DNA of 34,683 nt from positions 1 through 34,683 of the forward strand of contig PKDD01000110.1 in the NCBI GenBank assembly GCA_002862465.1, written 5' to 3'. Below, one piece after another: positions 12,842 through 19,977 of the stretch (within the stretch, counting starts at the first letter, position 1; the number at the start of each line of letters is the position of its first letter). The position numbers and the translations under genes are program-made. This stretch comes from Haliea sp. GTDB taxonomy: Bacteria > Pseudomonadota > Gammaproteobacteria > Pseudomonadales > Halieaceae. Below the pieces are notes generated by a model. That model did no database searches, was not told where the DNA came from, and saw only the letters and a program-made list of their open reading frames with translations.

Positions 12842-12866
12842 GTACTATTTACCCGCACGATAGTAC
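12842..12866. repeat. Inverted repeat spanning the nqrM stop codon
   Basis: GTACTAT (12842-12848) and ATAGTAC (12860-12866) are a perfect 7-bp inverted repeat with an 11-base loop. It covers the nqrM stop and lies about 36-60 bases before lolC. No U-run follows at once on the minus strand, so it is not a canonical terminator. It could be a 3'-end stabilising hairpin or an operator before lolCDE. Confidence 0.4.
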
Positions 12867-13078
12867 TGCGAGACTTTGCCTTTATTGGCTTCCGTCTTAC
12901 GTGTCTCCTCATCACAGCGCTGCGGATTTCCGCCGCAAAGCTCGCAGGCTGTGTCAACACCCAGCGCCCCCATACCGCCGCAGGAACCTTTAATGGGCGC
13001 TCGTCCCGCCAGAACACCAACAGCCATGCCTGCCATAACCAGGCCCATTACCACTACGCTGATGAAAAACAATACCAT
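12845..13078 (-). CDS. nqrM: Na+-NQR maturation protein NqrM
   Basis: NqrM (formerly DUF539) is a small membrane-anchored protein needed to mature Na+-NQR, thought to deliver iron to the centre held by NqrD and NqrE. This 77-residue protein has an N-terminal membrane helix (about 3-24), then GRAPIKGSCGGMGALGVDTAC and four cysteines at 33, 45, 48 and 55, the family's conserved set. ATG at 13078 has AAGGG 7 bases upstream. It follows apbE after 29 bases, the standard nqrA-F/apbE/nqrM order. Confidence 0.94.
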   Translation of the reverse strand: MVLFFISVVVMGLVMAGMAVGVLAGRAPIKGSCGGMGALGVDTACELCGGNPQRCDEETRKTEANKGKVSQYYRAGK

Positions 13079-13107: not shown

Positions 13108-14169
13108 CTAAAACTCTGGTGGCGGCAGATAAGCCGCGAATAACGATGTTTGACTGTGCACGAATTCATCGCCTAACCTCTGTATGAAATATACCGCCAA
13201 TCCTTGTGCTTGCGCTACCATCATCGCCTCCTCCGCCCCAAGGACGGTCAGAGCGGTAGCCCAAGCGTCAGCCATCATACAGCTTTGGTGCATCACAGTA
13301 ACTGACACTAAATCATGTCTAACCGGATATCCGGTTCTGGGATCAATGCTATGCGAGTAACGACGACCATCCACTTCGAAGTAATTACGGTAGTCTCCCG
13401 AAGTCGCGATTGCCACATCGGTCAAACTTAACGTGACAGCAACAGCACGCTCGGCGATCATTGGCTGCTCGATCGCAATACGCCACGGATCCCCACGCCC
13501 ACTGAGCCCCGACAAACGCATCTCCCCACCGATTTCCACCATGTAGCGTCTAACCCCCTGCGCAGACAACCACTCAGCGACCCGATCTACAGCATAACCC
13601 TTCGCCAGCGAAGACACATCAACAGAAAAATCTCTCTGCTTTAAAATACTTCGATTTTGGTCTTCTAAGCGAAGATTAGCCTGCCCTACTCGAAGCAGCA
13701 GCTGCGCTATCTCGTCGTGTTCGGGTGGCGCCTCTATTATGTCGCCGGGACCAAAACCCCACAAATCTACCAGCGCACCTACCGTCACGTCGTAAGCGCC
13801 ATTACTCTTTTGGCCAACGTCTAGAGCGGCTTTAAGTACCGCAAAAAATTCGGCTGAAGACGAAAACCATGTTTGCGTCTCAATCGCATTGAACTCGCTA
13901 ATCTCGGAGTCAGCCTGATAGGTAGACATACTTGAGTTGACCTCCGCCAGCAACACCTCGATGCCGTCCTGCAGTTGACGGGGGCTGACCTCGGACGACT
14001 CCTCTATATAGGTGACGCCCCATGTAGTGCCCATAATGTCGCCGCCGAGTTGCACCGGCGGCGCCTGACGAACACAACTGCCCAATAAAAATAGCGCTGC
14101 CAAACAAAAAAGCCACCCTCGAGAGTGGCTTTGCAGCGTCACAAAAGCAGGCTTAACCACCGAAATCAT
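13108..14169 (-). CDS. apbE: FAD:protein FMN transferase (lipoprotein)
   Basis: ApbE is a periplasmic, Mg2+-dependent enzyme that transfers FMN from FAD to threonines of NqrB and NqrC. The N-terminus is a lipoprotein signal: a basic residue in HSRGW, hydrophobic [10 protein letters not shown], then lipobox LLGSC with Cys32. Family motifs include [31 protein letters not shown], the near-invariant [10 protein letters not shown] (about 273-282) and [10 protein letters not shown]. Length 353 is usual. ATG at 14169 overlaps the end of nqrF by 17 bases without a clear ribosome site. A later in-frame GTG just before LQSHSRGW is an alternative. A strong intrinsic terminator lies within its signal-peptide codons. 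Confidence 0.95.
14102..14132 (-). terminator. Intrinsic terminator after nqrF, inside apbE coding sequence
   Basis: On the minus strand AAAGCCAC (14132-14125) pairs perfectly with GTGGCTTT (14116-14109) across an 8-base loop, and the right arm runs into six U's, then G and three U's. This is a textbook rho-independent terminator. It starts 20 bases after the nqrF stop codon. The same bases encode residues about 13-22 of ApbE ([10 protein letters not shown]), so apbE transcription from the nqr promoter must read through it. Confidence 0.75.
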
Positions 14170-15376
14170 CAAGCATGATATTCTCGGGCTCCACTCCCAA
14201 AGATGTCAGCATTTGTATGACTGCAGCATTCATCATCGGCGGGCCACACATGTAGTACTCACAATCTTCTGGCGCCGGGTGGTTCTTTAAGTATTCCTCA
14301 AACAGCACATTATGAATAAATCCAGTGGAACCCTCCCATTCATCTTCAGGTTGAGGATCGGACAGCGCCACATTCCATTCGAAATTGTCATTTTCTTGAG
14401 CCAGTTGATCATACTCTTCAACGTAGAACATCTCTCGCAACGACCTGGCGCCATACCAAAACGAAATTTTACGATCTGTATGCAGGCGCCTTAGCTGATC
14501 GAACAAGAGTGACCGCATCGGAGCCATACCCGCACCTCCACCAATAAACACCATCTCTGCTTTAGTGTCCTTGGCGAAAAACTCTCCAAACGGGCCGTAT
14601 ACCTTTACCTTGTCGCCCGGCTTCAGATTAAATGCCCATGACGACATAAGACCGCAGGGAATACCCTCGCTGCCCGGCGGCGGACTAGCGATACGAATAT
14701 TGAATTTTACCACTCCCTCTTCATCCGGATAATTAGCCATCGAATATGCTCGAATAACTGTTTCGTCGACAATTGACTCAAGTTTGAAAAAGCCAAATCG
14801 ATCCCAATCACCGAGGTACTCCTGCTCTATATCAAAGTCGGAATACTTTACGTGATGGGGCGGACACTCCAACTGCACATAGCCTCCGGCGCGAAAATTA
14901 ACATTCTCTCCTTCCGGCAGTCGCAGTGTTAATTCTTTGATAAATGTGGCTACGTTAGGATTAGATTCAACGGTACATTGCCATTGTTTGACACCGAACA
15001 CCTCATCCGGAACCAAAATTTCCATATCTTGCTTGACGGCGGTCTGGCAACTCAACCGCCAACCCTCTGCGGCTTCGCGACGATTAAAATGTCCTTCTTC
15101 GGTTGGCAACATCGACCCACCGCCGTCAGTGATAATGCATTTGCACTGAGCACAAGTACCCCCACCACCGCATGCAGACGGTAAAAACAGATCGGCTTCC
15201 GACAATGTCTGCAGTAATTTTCCTCCCGCAGGAACGGTAATACGCTTCTCACCGTTGATCAGGATATTGACCTCACCGGTGCTCACCAAATACGAGCGCG
15301 CGTAAAGAATGACGGCCACCAGCGAAAGCACAATCGCTGTGAACATGCCGACACCGAAAATAATTGTCATTTCCAT
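14153..15376 (-). CDS. nqrF: Na+-translocating NADH:quinone reductase subunit F
   Basis: NqrF is the NADH-oxidising entry subunit of the sodium pump. It has an N-terminal membrane helix (about 4-28), a 2Fe-2S ferredoxin domain with Cys69, Cys75, Cys78 and Cys110, an FAD-binding RAYSMANYP motif, and an NADH-binding domain with [25 protein letters not shown] and MCGPPMMN. It ends MLDDFGG as usual. Length 407 is typical. ATG at 15376 has a weak GGAA site; an ATG two codons later is possible. It follows nqrE by 16 bases and overlaps the apbE start. Confidence 0.97.
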
Positions 15377-15392: not shown

Positions 15393-16001
15393 CTAGATAT
15401 CGATACCGCCGAAGGACATAAAGCCCATCGCCATCAGACCAGCGGTAATAAAAGTGATTCCCAGCCCCTGCAGACCATCCGGTACATCAGAATATTTTAG
15501 CTTTTCGCGAATACCCGCCAGTGCAATGACGGCGAGTGCCCACCCGAGCCCTGACCCAACGCCAAAGACAACACTTTCCGCAAATCCGTAATCCCGCTCT
15601 ACCATAAATAACGCAGCACCCAAGATCGCACAGTTAACTGTGATCAATGGTAAAAAAACGCCCAATGCGTTATAAAGTGCCGGCATAAATTTATCGAGGA
15701 ACATTTCCATTATTTGCACGATAGCGGCAATCACGCCGATATAAGACAACAGACCCAAGAAGCTCAGGTCCATATCAGGCAGGCCGGCCCAAGCTAACGC
15801 CCCATCGGCCAGCAAGTAATGGTAAATCAAATTATTAACCGGCACGGTTATTGCTAAAACTACCGTCACAGCAATGCCCAAACCTATTGCCGCTTGCACT
15901 TTTTTAGAGATTGCTAAAAAAGTACACATACCAAGAAAAAAGGCGAGCGCCATATTTTCTATGAATATAGAGCGAACGAATAGGCTTAGCAGGGCTTCCA
16001 T
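15393..16001 (-). CDS. nqrE: Na+-translocating NADH:quinone reductase subunit E
   Basis: Polytopic inner-membrane subunit (202 residues, about six helices) that with NqrD forms the Na+ pathway and holds an intramembrane iron-sulfur centre. The expected cysteines are Cys26 (FLGMCTFLA) and Cys124 (TVNCAILG). The ATG overlaps the nqrD stop by one base (TAATG), suggesting coupling that would favour equal amounts of the two subunits. Confidence 0.97.
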
Positions 16002-16663
16002 TATGTGCCCTCCTTCACCGTTGCATGACTCGCTAGTTTAAATTCGGTTGCTTCCACCTGGTCCTTTCGCACACTGCGCAGCACCCAGATAAAACCACCG
16101 ATCAGAAAAAACGCACTGGGTGGCAATAGCAGCAGCCCATTTGGAACATACCATCCGCCATCGGTGACAAGCGGCAAAACCTCGAAGCCCATCAACTTGC
16201 CAGAACCTAATACTTCACGCACGAACGCTACGGAAATCAAGACAACGCTGTACCCGAGACCGTTTCCTAAACCGTCGACAAAACTCGCCATGGGTGGGTT
16301 TTTCATCGCGAACGCCTCGGCGCGCCCCATGACGATGCAGTTAGTGATGATAAGTCCGACAAACACAGAGAGTTGCTTACTAATACCAAAGGCATAGGCC
16401 TTAAGGAATTGATCTACCACAATCACCAGCGAGGCTATAATGACCATCTGAACGATAATGCGTATGCTACTTGGAATGTGTGCTCGGATGATCGAAATAA
16501 ACATGCCTGAGAATGCAGTGACCAGGGTCAACGCAACGCACATCACCAACGTCACTTTCATTGACGATGTGACGGCTAACGCAGAGCAAACACCAAGAAT
16601 TTGTAAAGCGATTGGATTATTTTTAAAGATTGGGCCGGTCAGCGTCTCTTTGATAGCTTGCAT
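16001..16663 (-). CDS. nqrD: Na+-translocating NADH:quinone reductase subunit D
   Basis: Polytopic inner-membrane subunit (220 residues, about six helices), the inverted partner of NqrE. Cys26 (LGVCSALAV) and Cys109 ([15 protein letters not shown]) are the expected ligands of the NqrD/NqrE iron centre. It starts with ATG two bases after the nqrC stop. Length and the [10 protein letters not shown] block are typical of the family. Confidence 0.97.
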
Positions 16664-16665
16664 GA

Positions 16666-17451
16666 TCAGGCATCCCCTGCTTGGAGGTTGAGAAGGAAGG
16701 GCTCGAAGCCGTTTTCGCCCAACCAGAAATGCACAAGATTAGTGACTCCCTTACTAGTCAGAGTGGCGCCGGCGAGTCCGTCGACTTCCCACGGCGCACT
16801 GACAGAAGCAGGGTTAACGGCGCCTTTGACTAGCTCAATCTCTACTTCACCGTCCCGATATACCTGTTTACCCGACCAAAGCGCTTTCCAACGCGGGTTA
16901 TCAACCTCCCCACCAAGACCGGGCGTTTCTCCGTGCTCGTAAAAGCCCAAGCCCGCTATCGTATTGTTATCAGACTCCAAAGCTATGAAACCATAGAGTG
17001 TAGACCAGAGACCATAACCACGAATCGGCAAAATAACTTTTTCAATGGCGCCTCGTGGATTCTGAACAAGGTAAACAACGGCATACTGCTCGCGACGCGA
17101 AATCTTAGCGAGATCTTCTTTTGTGGTAAGGGCCTCAGATAAATCAGGATCTTTAGCCGCTTTACGTTGATCATATCTGGCAACGTCTACCGCACCATCT
17201 GCAAACTTACCCGTATTCAGGTCGACAACTCGCGTATTGATATCCGCAAACTGCGCATTGATATCCTCTTCGCTCGCAGCCGCCGCCAGCATGCCCGCAG
17301 CAGCAAGAATATTACGCTTACGATCTAGCGTTTTGTTAACTTCCTGAATAGGTTTAAGAATCACCACGGCAGCAGACACAATCACTGAACAGACTATGCA
17401 GAGCGCGAGTGCTACTACCAATGTTTTTGAGGTGCTGTCGTTACCCGACAC
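16666..17451 (-). CDS. nqrC: Na+-translocating NADH:quinone reductase subunit C
   Basis: NqrC has one N-terminal membrane anchor (about residues 9-32) and a periplasmic FMN-binding domain carrying covalent FMN on threonine. The attachment motif reads [10 protein letters not shown], with the acceptor Thr near residue 230; the more familiar form is S/T-G-A-T, so Ala replaces Ser/Thr at the first position. [20 protein letters not shown] is a further family block. The start is GTG at 17451, with a perfect GGAGG 8 bases upstream, and [11 protein letters not shown] aligns with other NqrC. The protein has 261 residues and its gene overlaps nqrB by 11 bases. Confidence 0.96.
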
Positions 17452-18637
17452 GAGCAACCCTCCGTTTAATATTGGCCTGCACCACAAAATGATCTATCAG
17501 CGGCGCAAACAGGTTAGAAAACAGAATTGCAAGCATAATCCCCTCTGGGAACGCTGGATTGACGACACGTATTAACACCGTCATAACGCCAATCAATACC
17601 CCGTAGGCCCACTTACCACTGTCTGTCATGGCGCCAGAGACGGGTTCGGTTGCCATAAAAACCATTCCAAAAGCAAAGCCACCTGTCACCAAGTGCCAGT
17701 ACCAGGGCGTCGCAAACGCAGGATTAGTATCAGATCCAATCGCATTCAATAAACCAGAGAACACCACCATTCCCAGAAATACGCCGAGTATAATTCTATA
17801 AGAGGCAATGCGGGTAATCAGCAACAAAACCATTCCAAGCGATATGGCCAAAGTAGAAGTTTCACCTATGGAACCGGGTATGGCGCCGACAAAAGCCTGT
17901 GTCCAAGTCCACTGCTGCTGCAGCATCTCGATACCACCGGACGCGATGAGTGCTAACGGTGTTGCAGCGGTAACACCATCCACTGCAACCCACACCGCAT
18001 CACCTGACAGTTGAACCGGATAAGCGAAGTAAAGGAATGCCCGGCCAGCTAAGGCAGGATTGAGGAAGTTTTTTCCAGTTCCACCAAAAATCTCTTTCGC
18101 GACCACCACACCAAAACTGATGCCAAGCGCCACTTGCCAGAGCGGTACATCCGGAGGACAAATTAGCGCGAACAGAACTGAAGTAACAAAAAAACCTTCA
18201 TTAACTTCGTGTCCGCGCTTTATAGCGAACAGGAATTCCCAGCTAATCCCAACCAAAAACGTAACTACATAGATGGGCACAAAAAATAACGCTCCGTACC
18301 AAATACAATTCCAGATACTACTGCCATCATAACCACCAAACATATCGACCAGAGAGCCGCGCCAACCCTCTAGCACAAATCCGCTGGGCATAAACTCCAT
18401 AGCCTGAAATCCAACGTTGTACATGCCATAAAACATAGCAGGAAACGTGGCCAGCCATACCGTGATCATAATTCGCTTAAGGTCGATACCATCGCGGACA
18501 TGCGCGGTCGACTTGGTAACAGAGTTAGGCGCATATAAAAAAGTATCAAACACCTCGAACACAGCAAACCACTTTTGCAGACGACCCCCTTCTTGAAAAT
18601 GGGTCTCCATGTTGTCCAGCATTCGTCTCAGTCCCAC
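17441..18637 (-). CDS. nqrB: Na+-translocating NADH:quinone reductase subunit B
   Basis: Polytopic inner-membrane subunit (398 residues) that carries covalent FMN and riboflavin and forms part of the quinone and Na+ route. The N-terminus, [14 protein letters not shown], is as in Vibrio NqrB. The FMN site reads [10 protein letters not shown] with acceptor Thr226, where the common form is S/T-G-A-T, so Ala replaces Gly. Other family blocks are [28 protein letters not shown] and [12 protein letters not shown]-like text. The GTG start has a strong AAGGAGG 8 bases upstream and lies two bases after the nqrA stop. Confidence 0.97.
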
Positions 18638-18639
18638 GT

Positions 18640-19977
18640 TTACCCCTCCTTCTCGATACGTGTCAGGTTATCCCGCAGGATGGGGCCGTACTCATACTTG
18701 CCGGCGCAAACATAACTGCACAAGGCCAGATCTTCTTCTTCCAACTCTAAACAACCCAGCGCCTGAGCCATCTCCGTATCGCCGACGATTAACGCGCGAA
18801 GGAGTTGGGTGGGCAAAATATCAAGCGGCATAACTTTTTCATAACTGCCCACCGGAACCATTGCACGGTCGCTACCGTGTGTATTGGTAGTCATAGCAAA
18901 TCGCTTAGAACCAAAAAAGCTCGTCACGTAAATGCCCAGATTCGAATGCTTTTCAAAACCCGGCGAGGCCCAACCCATAAATTCTCTCTCGCGCCCCTCC
19001 AACAAGACGGCAACTTGATTATGATAGCGCCCCAAGTAGGAAGAACCAGCATGCACTGCGCGTCCGCCAAGGACAGAACCTGATATAATCCGGTTGTCAC
19101 CATTTTTTAACTGGCCTGCACACAGCGCGCGCAGGTCTGCGCCTAGACGAGTGCGCAGCAAACGAGGGCTTTCTACCTGTGGCCCGCATAGTGCAATGAC
19201 CCGCTCTGCAAAAACACGTCCATCGAGAAAAAGGCGCCCTATGGCGATGACATCTTGATACCCAATAGTCCAAACCGTTTTAGTCGCACCTACCGCTTGC
19301 AGATAGTGCACATGGGTTCCAGCTAAGCCCGCCGGATGTGGCCCCTCAAACTCAGCAACCTCTATATTAGGTGCAGTGCCCTCTGGGATTTGGGCTCCAG
19401 CAGCCTTGCACACATATAATTTGCCCGCAGTTAGCGCAGCGAGGAGATCTTGACCTAACCGAAAAGCCTCAGCTTGCTGATTGATCACCAATGTGGGCTC
19501 TGCTGCCATTGGATGAGAGTCCATGGCGGTTACAAAAATGGCCGCGGCCTCCGACTCTGGTGATGGTACTTTGCTGTAGGGCCGGGTGCGCAAAGCGGTC
19601 CACTGTCCACTGAGAACCAACTGACTGCGAATAGCATCTGGCTCCGGCAAATCGTGCGCAGAGCAAGTCTGAAATATCTCTGCATCGTCGCCATCAACAT
19701 CAATGACCACAGACTGGAGTACCCTCTTGGCACCGCGATTAATAGCTGACACCGTGCCTGCAGCCGGCGAGGTATAGCAGACGCCCTCAGTCTTCTTATC
19801 AGTAAATAACAACTGTCCGAGCTTGACGCGATCACCTTCCTGCACCGCCATAGTTGGCTTCATTCCGACATAGTCGAAGCCGACCAGAGCTGCGGCTCTC
19901 GCCAAGGGCGCATCTTCGATGACTTGCCGGGGGGCCCCCAGAATAGGAATGTCCAGGCCCCGTTTAATGTTGATCAT
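18640..19977 (-). CDS. nqrA: Na+-translocating NADH:quinone reductase subunit A
   Basis: Peripheral cytoplasmic subunit (445 residues) at the quinone end of the pump. It starts [16 protein letters not shown] and includes [47 protein letters not shown] and a C-terminal [16 protein letters not shown], all typical of NqrA and the related RnfC. ATG at 19977 has AGGCGG 5-6 bases upstream. As first gene of nqrABCDEF it follows a 276-base leader region with a promoter candidate and two inverted repeats. Confidence 0.97.

Follow-up and report, generated by a model that had tools for sequence, protein, structure and literature searches.

The nqr operon of a Haliea sp. is very likely to carry an operon-internal intrinsic terminator, kept by selection at the RNA level within the signal-peptide codons of apbE, which would lower transcription of apbE and nqrM by partial read-through. 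The presence of the element, its single copy, its conservation, pair-preserving changes at some of its pairs and a synonymous bias towards U are supported directly; from the anatomy of the site and published E. coli work we infer termination in the cell, the fraction of read-through and the effect on dosage. Comparison of relatives makes a clear case for one stretch of DNA serving both as a predicted terminator and as the code for an export signal, with protein residues that appear to covary because of RNA pairing; from it follows a prediction of how these sodium-pump operons may keep their maturation factors low.

The boundary between nqrF and apbE

The window (the whole stretch of DNA analysed, 34,683 nucleotides) is one contig of a 3.3-Mb assembly, and among the matches listed the closest named relatives of its NqrF are Haliea and Halioglobus MAGs (97%). 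The features that concern us here are:

15393..19977, minus strand: nqrA-nqrE, the structural genes upstream (NCBIfam)
14153..15376, minus strand: nqrF (TIGR01941), with its stop codon at 14155-14153
13108..14169, minus strand: apbE (Pfam ApbE, 8.9e-89), read from the ATG at 14169 and overlapping nqrF by 17 nt
14160 and 14142, minus strand: alternative in-frame GTG starts of apbE
14074..14142, minus strand: signal-peptide codons of apbE, GTG 14142 to the lipobox Cys at 14076-14074 (lipobox LLGSC, assigned by eye)
14109..14132, minus strand: predicted terminator hairpin, stem 14132-14123 / 14118-14109, loop 14122-14119 (TCGA), from the sequence and conserved in relatives
14102..14111, minus strand: U tract TTTTTTGTTT, covering the end of CTT, then TTT, TGT and the start of TTG (Leu-Phe-Cys-Leu), from the sequence and codon bias
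12845..13078, minus strand: nqrM, the gene after apbE (Pfam NqrM, 3.6e-14; no match in NCBIfam)

With nqrA-F, apbE and nqrM all on the minus strand, the hairpin stands between genes of one same-strand cluster; a lolC/E permease gene comes after nqrM.

On the minus strand the hairpin reads AAAGCCACTC-TCGA-GGGTGGCTTT, with TTTGTTT next, and its stem lies 20 nt from the end of the nqrF stop codon (14153), where the preliminary description had placed it. That description also gave the U run correctly, as six U (14111-14106), a G and three U (14104-14102), but its 8-bp stem and 8-base loop have to be replaced by a stem of ten pairs, one of them U·G, around a loop of 4 nt (UCGA in the RNA). Five of the ten pairs are G-C, making this a GC-rich stem-loop, and the U run, UUUUUUGUUU, lies directly 3' of the stem; its first three U can also pair with AAA. 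Folded alone, the hairpin of the window has -13.4 kcal/mol (median -15.3 over 144 loci), and the 81-nt fold around it has a z of -2.73.

A single score for stem, loop and U run, which demands a T-rich tail and was used everywhere with a cut-off of at least 30, gives the hairpin 36.96 and finds it to be the sole site at or above the cut-off on both strands of the 34.7-kb window. In 40 further stretches of the genome plus the window, 835 kb in all, 52 sites reach the cut-off; a crude ORF call places 20 of them in same-strand ORFs, among which the nqrF/apbE hairpin ranks second. A simple terminator-like scan of 14 kb gave no clear excess (18 sites versus a mean of 14.9, sd 4.1). In Rfam, no family exceeded its gathering score at the hairpin, two tRNAs being the only matches in the window.

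As had also been claimed, the hairpin DNA is in frame within the lipoprotein signal codons of apbE: the frame over it reads GTG ACG CTG CAA AGC CAC TCT CGA GGG TGG CTT TTT TGT TTG and runs on to the lipobox LLGSC. The position of the ATG at 14169 is ACG in two close relatives (L003 and L006), and a later apbE start is therefore possible. Fewer than 12 residues separate the hairpin from the lipobox Cys in 100 of 144 loci, so the start most likely lies upstream of the hairpin, and the apbE mRNA would then span the hairpin in most loci. Promoter-like sites between 9000 and 23000 are near chance in number (18 versus 13.5 in shuffles, sd 4.0) and give no ground for proposing a promoter of apbE's own, although one inside nqrF is possible.

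Conservation among relatives

For comparison, 217 loci with nqrF were gathered and 216 parsed (L210, whose nqrF end could not be parsed, was left out), and merging identical boundaries gave 194 distinct ones. One of the nqrF relative sets consists of the best 80 of at least 594 loci. Among 140 genomes of the family, 19 gave no match to nqrF at 1e-120; three more, in which nqrF is cut before its end (G092, G121 and G128), were left out; G037, from the other relatives and with a match reaching the nqrF end, is not included. A further 14 boundaries from outside the order were counted separately from the 194.

A U-tailed hairpin scoring at least 30 within 150 nt of the nqrF stop is found at 155 of the 194 distinct boundaries. 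Five same-strand control sets, scored alike on windows taken from stretches within the collected loci, gave 12 in 4123: 1 of 1156 in the body of apbE, 3 of 728 in that of nqrF, 3 of 104 across the nqrE/F junction, 4 of 722 past the end of apbE and 1 of 1413 upstream. The opposite strand of the boundary scores at least 30 in 36 of 194 cases, which we put down to A runs facing the U runs. Within the family the hairpin is present at 93 of 103 distinct boundaries, so that most close relatives sharing the gene order keep it, as the preliminary description would lead one to expect. The other 10 family boundaries have no scoring hairpin; by eye, L019 and L113 among them keep a longer-looped hairpin and L123 keeps the stem with a decayed U run. 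Outside the order the hairpin occurs at just 2 of 14 boundaries, one (L219) with no apbE frame seen, and it is absent from the Pseudomonas loci L072 and L081, in which apbE adjoins.

At 144 of the 194 boundaries the hairpin lies wholly inside apbE, ahead of the lipobox Cys. At 8 further loci an ApbE-like frame follows and the hairpin could not be placed within it. They include L107, L109, L205 and L214, in which the frame opens downstream and the predicted terminator after nqrF is outside ApbE-like coding sequence, and L141 and L169, with broken or doubtful frames. In L141 a signal-like frame starts before the hairpin, and ApbE is matched best by a frame that opens 387 nt past the nqrF stop, an interruption of apbE that could be an assembly error. 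L083, L105 and L111 have the hairpin and no ApbE-like frame within about 1.3 kb; in L083 the predicted terminator after nqrF is thus outside any such frame.

Spacing of the hairpin and its proposed action

In the mechanism that we propose, polymerase leaving nqrF would make the GC-rich hairpin and then the U run, at which a fraction of polymerases would stop, yielding the nqrA-F transcript. The remaining polymerases would continue into apbE and nqrM, a read-through that is plausible in the light of published work on another species. The maturation factors ApbE and NqrM would in this way be made below the level of the six subunits. ApbE attaches FMN to NqrB and NqrC (PMC6209661, PMC12052999), and as a catalyst it would therefore be needed in lesser amount. 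The GC-rich codons of the signal n-region would build the stem, and the Leu and Phe codons of the h-region the U run. More speculatively, ribosomes ending nqrF or starting apbE could tune the fraction that is read through; this step, too, is suggested by the anatomy of the site together with E. coli work.

The E. coli yardstick is a series built on the lambda tR2 terminator (PMC4824070). In that series, tR2 hardly terminates with 8 bp between stop codon and hairpin and reaches an efficiency of about 0.9 at more than 30 bp. The fitted distance over which ribosomes repress the terminator is 27 nt, and termination can also take place within the opening 100 bp of a coding region. Spacing alone does not predict efficiency, since a pair of constructs with 17-18 bp gave about 0.12 and 0.8. 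In our loci the hairpin starts a median of 22 nt after the nqrF stop (range 4-85, 144 loci), the core stem a median of 24 nt after it. By this yardstick the median spacing of 22 nt would fit the range in which ribosomes can tune termination. The present site resembles the tR2 series in that the candidate terminator comes just past a stop codon and early in a coding region, where the E. coli terminators work with an efficiency set by ribosome distance; it differs in that the series was engineered and no selection for protein acted on the same bases.

A rival reading would make the element a translation-coupled attenuator. Passage of polymerase would then depend on the closeness of ribosomes finishing nqrF or starting apbE, and the output of ApbE and NqrM would report the state of translation rather than a fixed fraction of transcripts. 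We regard this as possible, yet on balance unlikely. The spacing lies mostly inside the 27-nt reach (PMC4824070), and 141 of 144 loci have an in-frame ATG, GTG or TTG ahead of the hairpin, the nearest at a median distance of 23 nt; the spacing varies, however, the core stem starting no more than 10 nt past the nqrF stop in 8 of 144 loci, and there is no sign of a fixed sensor. In attenuators of the pyrBI type, the position of the ribosome decides whether an intrinsic terminator folds. Such attenuators are mentioned in PMC4824070, and unlike them, the candidate terminator here sits in the regulated gene itself.

Probable selection on the RNA and turnover of the stem

The U run has left its mark in codon choice. 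When loci were chosen solely for the protein motif SHxxxW[LVIF][FGY], with the hairpin ignored, 47 were obtained; CTT encodes Leu in all 44 of them with Leu at that place, and TTT is the codon for Phe in 46 of 47. In the rest of ApbE in the group, CTT makes up 7.1% of Leu codons and TTT 52% of Phe codons. In the motif loci that have no scoring hairpin (L123 and L216), Val replaces Leu. Among group-1 windows the three outermost U-side columns are T in 44 of 44, with A as the facing base in 30, 21 and 7; T counts on picked loci are partly built in by the demand for a T-rich tail, a bias that the motif-picked codon test avoids. Being stable and close to both a start codon and a gene end, the stem could instead serve mainly to protect the 3' end of the nqrA-F mRNA after processing, or to hinder the start of apbE translation. 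We give these roles a low probability, as neither needs a U run, and the U run is kept both by the strong codon bias in the motif-picked loci and, in loci with the hairpin, even where the facing bases no longer pair.

The signal-peptide motifs are themselves conserved, and the hairpin is present in 46 of 48 proteins with S[HR]xxx[WG][LFV]F and in 44 of 44 with [RG]PAxxL[AV][FV], as would be the case if the protein sequence alone were conserved and the hairpin its by-product. This explanation is very improbable given the bias towards CTT and TTT and the results of synonymous recoding: none of 1000 recodings of the apbE N-terminus of the window reaches its hairpin score, and across 144 loci 69 have no recoding in 1000 that is as good, 122 have at most 5 and all 144 at most 50.

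The paired changes in the stem argue against a by-product as well. In the SHxxxW[LVIF][FGY] motif, residues three and five vary in step, in the combinations S/E, S/G, L/K, L/R, L/G, F/K, P/G and R/R, and their codons still pair; in L005, S with Q breaks pair 3 of group 1. In the RPAxxLAF group, AGGCC/GGCCT has become CGACC/GGTCG, with Arg kept by means of a different codon and A-F replaced by V-V. In 5000 shuffles of partners, the observed covariation was never equalled for group-1 pair 3 or for group-2 pairs 9 and 11. For group-1 pair 4 it is weak, being equalled in 195 of the 5000, and group-2 pair 10 shows none against the shuffles. These shuffles ignore relatedness and were made on loci chosen by having the hairpin, and most inner stem pairs are invariant and hence uninformative. 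For the varying pairs that could be tested, one weak pair excepted, the stem was found to covary with changing ApbE residues, the comparison that had been proposed for this boundary.

In other relatives, unrelated stems encoding different residues fill the same place, which again speaks against conservation of the protein alone:

GGCCAGC..GCTGGCC, encoding RPAxxLAF
CGAGGCC..GGCCTCG, encoding RASFLF
CAGGGCCG..CGGCCCTG in Microbulbifer, encoding GPxxxALFLF
GGCAGC..GCTGCTGGCC in Amphritea, Neptuniibacter and similar genera

The pattern groups take in 50, 51, 27 and 27 of the 155 loci. On an ApbE tree (FastTree, 180 rows, 60 of the 177 inner branches drawn open) the five stem labels must have changed at least 35 times, and presence or absence at least 25 times, counts that are loose because the labels are rough ones from pattern matching. 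We read the turnover only as more than a few changes. Repeated palindromes occur in many bacteria, and the chance that a mobile, REP-like element merely landed at the boundary is negligible, since the pattern AAGCCACTC-N3..6-GGTGGCTTTTT is present once in the 3.3-Mb assembly and, of 9 matches to the looser AAGCC..GGCTTTTT, the 8 others have other stems; we reject it on the ground of this single copy.

Recoding, codon choice, paired changes and the T columns on the U side thus agree, within the limits given, on selection at the RNA level, and the earlier suggestion that one stretch is used both as terminator and as export-signal code is strongly supported by comparison of relatives. An n-region rich in Arg, Pro and Ala could supply a stem, and an h-region of Leu and Phe a U run. 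It is a tentative proposal, about which we are more doubtful than confident, that the codons of signal peptides lend themselves to hosting terminators, and that at the nqrF/apbE junction in this order the stem has been swapped several times with the terminator kept, so that RNA pairing dictates residues of the export signal and the traffic of ribosomes meters the maturation factors. The case suggests searching for terminators where genes adjoin, in codons for signals and membrane anchors, sites that an intergenic-only search would miss.

Two parts of this picture are already known. Operon-internal intrinsic terminators set stoichiometry in ABC importer operons of Ruminiclostridium cellulolyticum (PMC9045158), where, as here, a stem-loop follows a gene needed in excess; the lower level of downstream transcript described there is one that we infer for apbE and nqrM. 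Those stem-loops are intergenic, after the binding-protein gene, unlike the present one, which is embedded in the signal codons of apbE, where the encoded residues covary with the stem. Likewise, E. coli has ORF-internal and 5'-UTR 3' ends in coding sequence, some with intrinsic-terminator scores (PMC7815308). They share with our site a terminator-like signal inside coding sequence, and they are presented as premature ends and sRNAs, in a main text from which "signal peptide" is absent. The open-licence literature yielded no match to a terminator-like element that most of a family retains within the signal codons of a following gene and whose encoded residues covary. Open-licence papers on nqr or apbE with terminator, NqrM or transcription yielded no description of an nqrF/apbE terminator, and the same literature yielded no RNA data for a named family member (Congregibacter, nqrF). 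The word "terminator" is absent from the main texts of PMC8238504, PMC12052999 and PMC12174285, and "nqr" from that of the P. aeruginosa 3'-end paper PMC8297930.

Elsewhere in the Haliea sp. genome, stretch L252 has a strong hairpin with a U run (about 18297-18315, plus strand, score 32.9). It lies 27 nt inside an ORF identified by Pfam as MreC, among codons for a hydrophobic N-terminal segment, and is possibly a second embedded terminator in the genome. In L268, a hairpin with a U run (about 17117, plus strand) lies 115 nt into an ORF and 68 nt past the previous same-strand stop, and the N-terminal part of that ORF is hydrophobic (MRATSFLFSAVLML).
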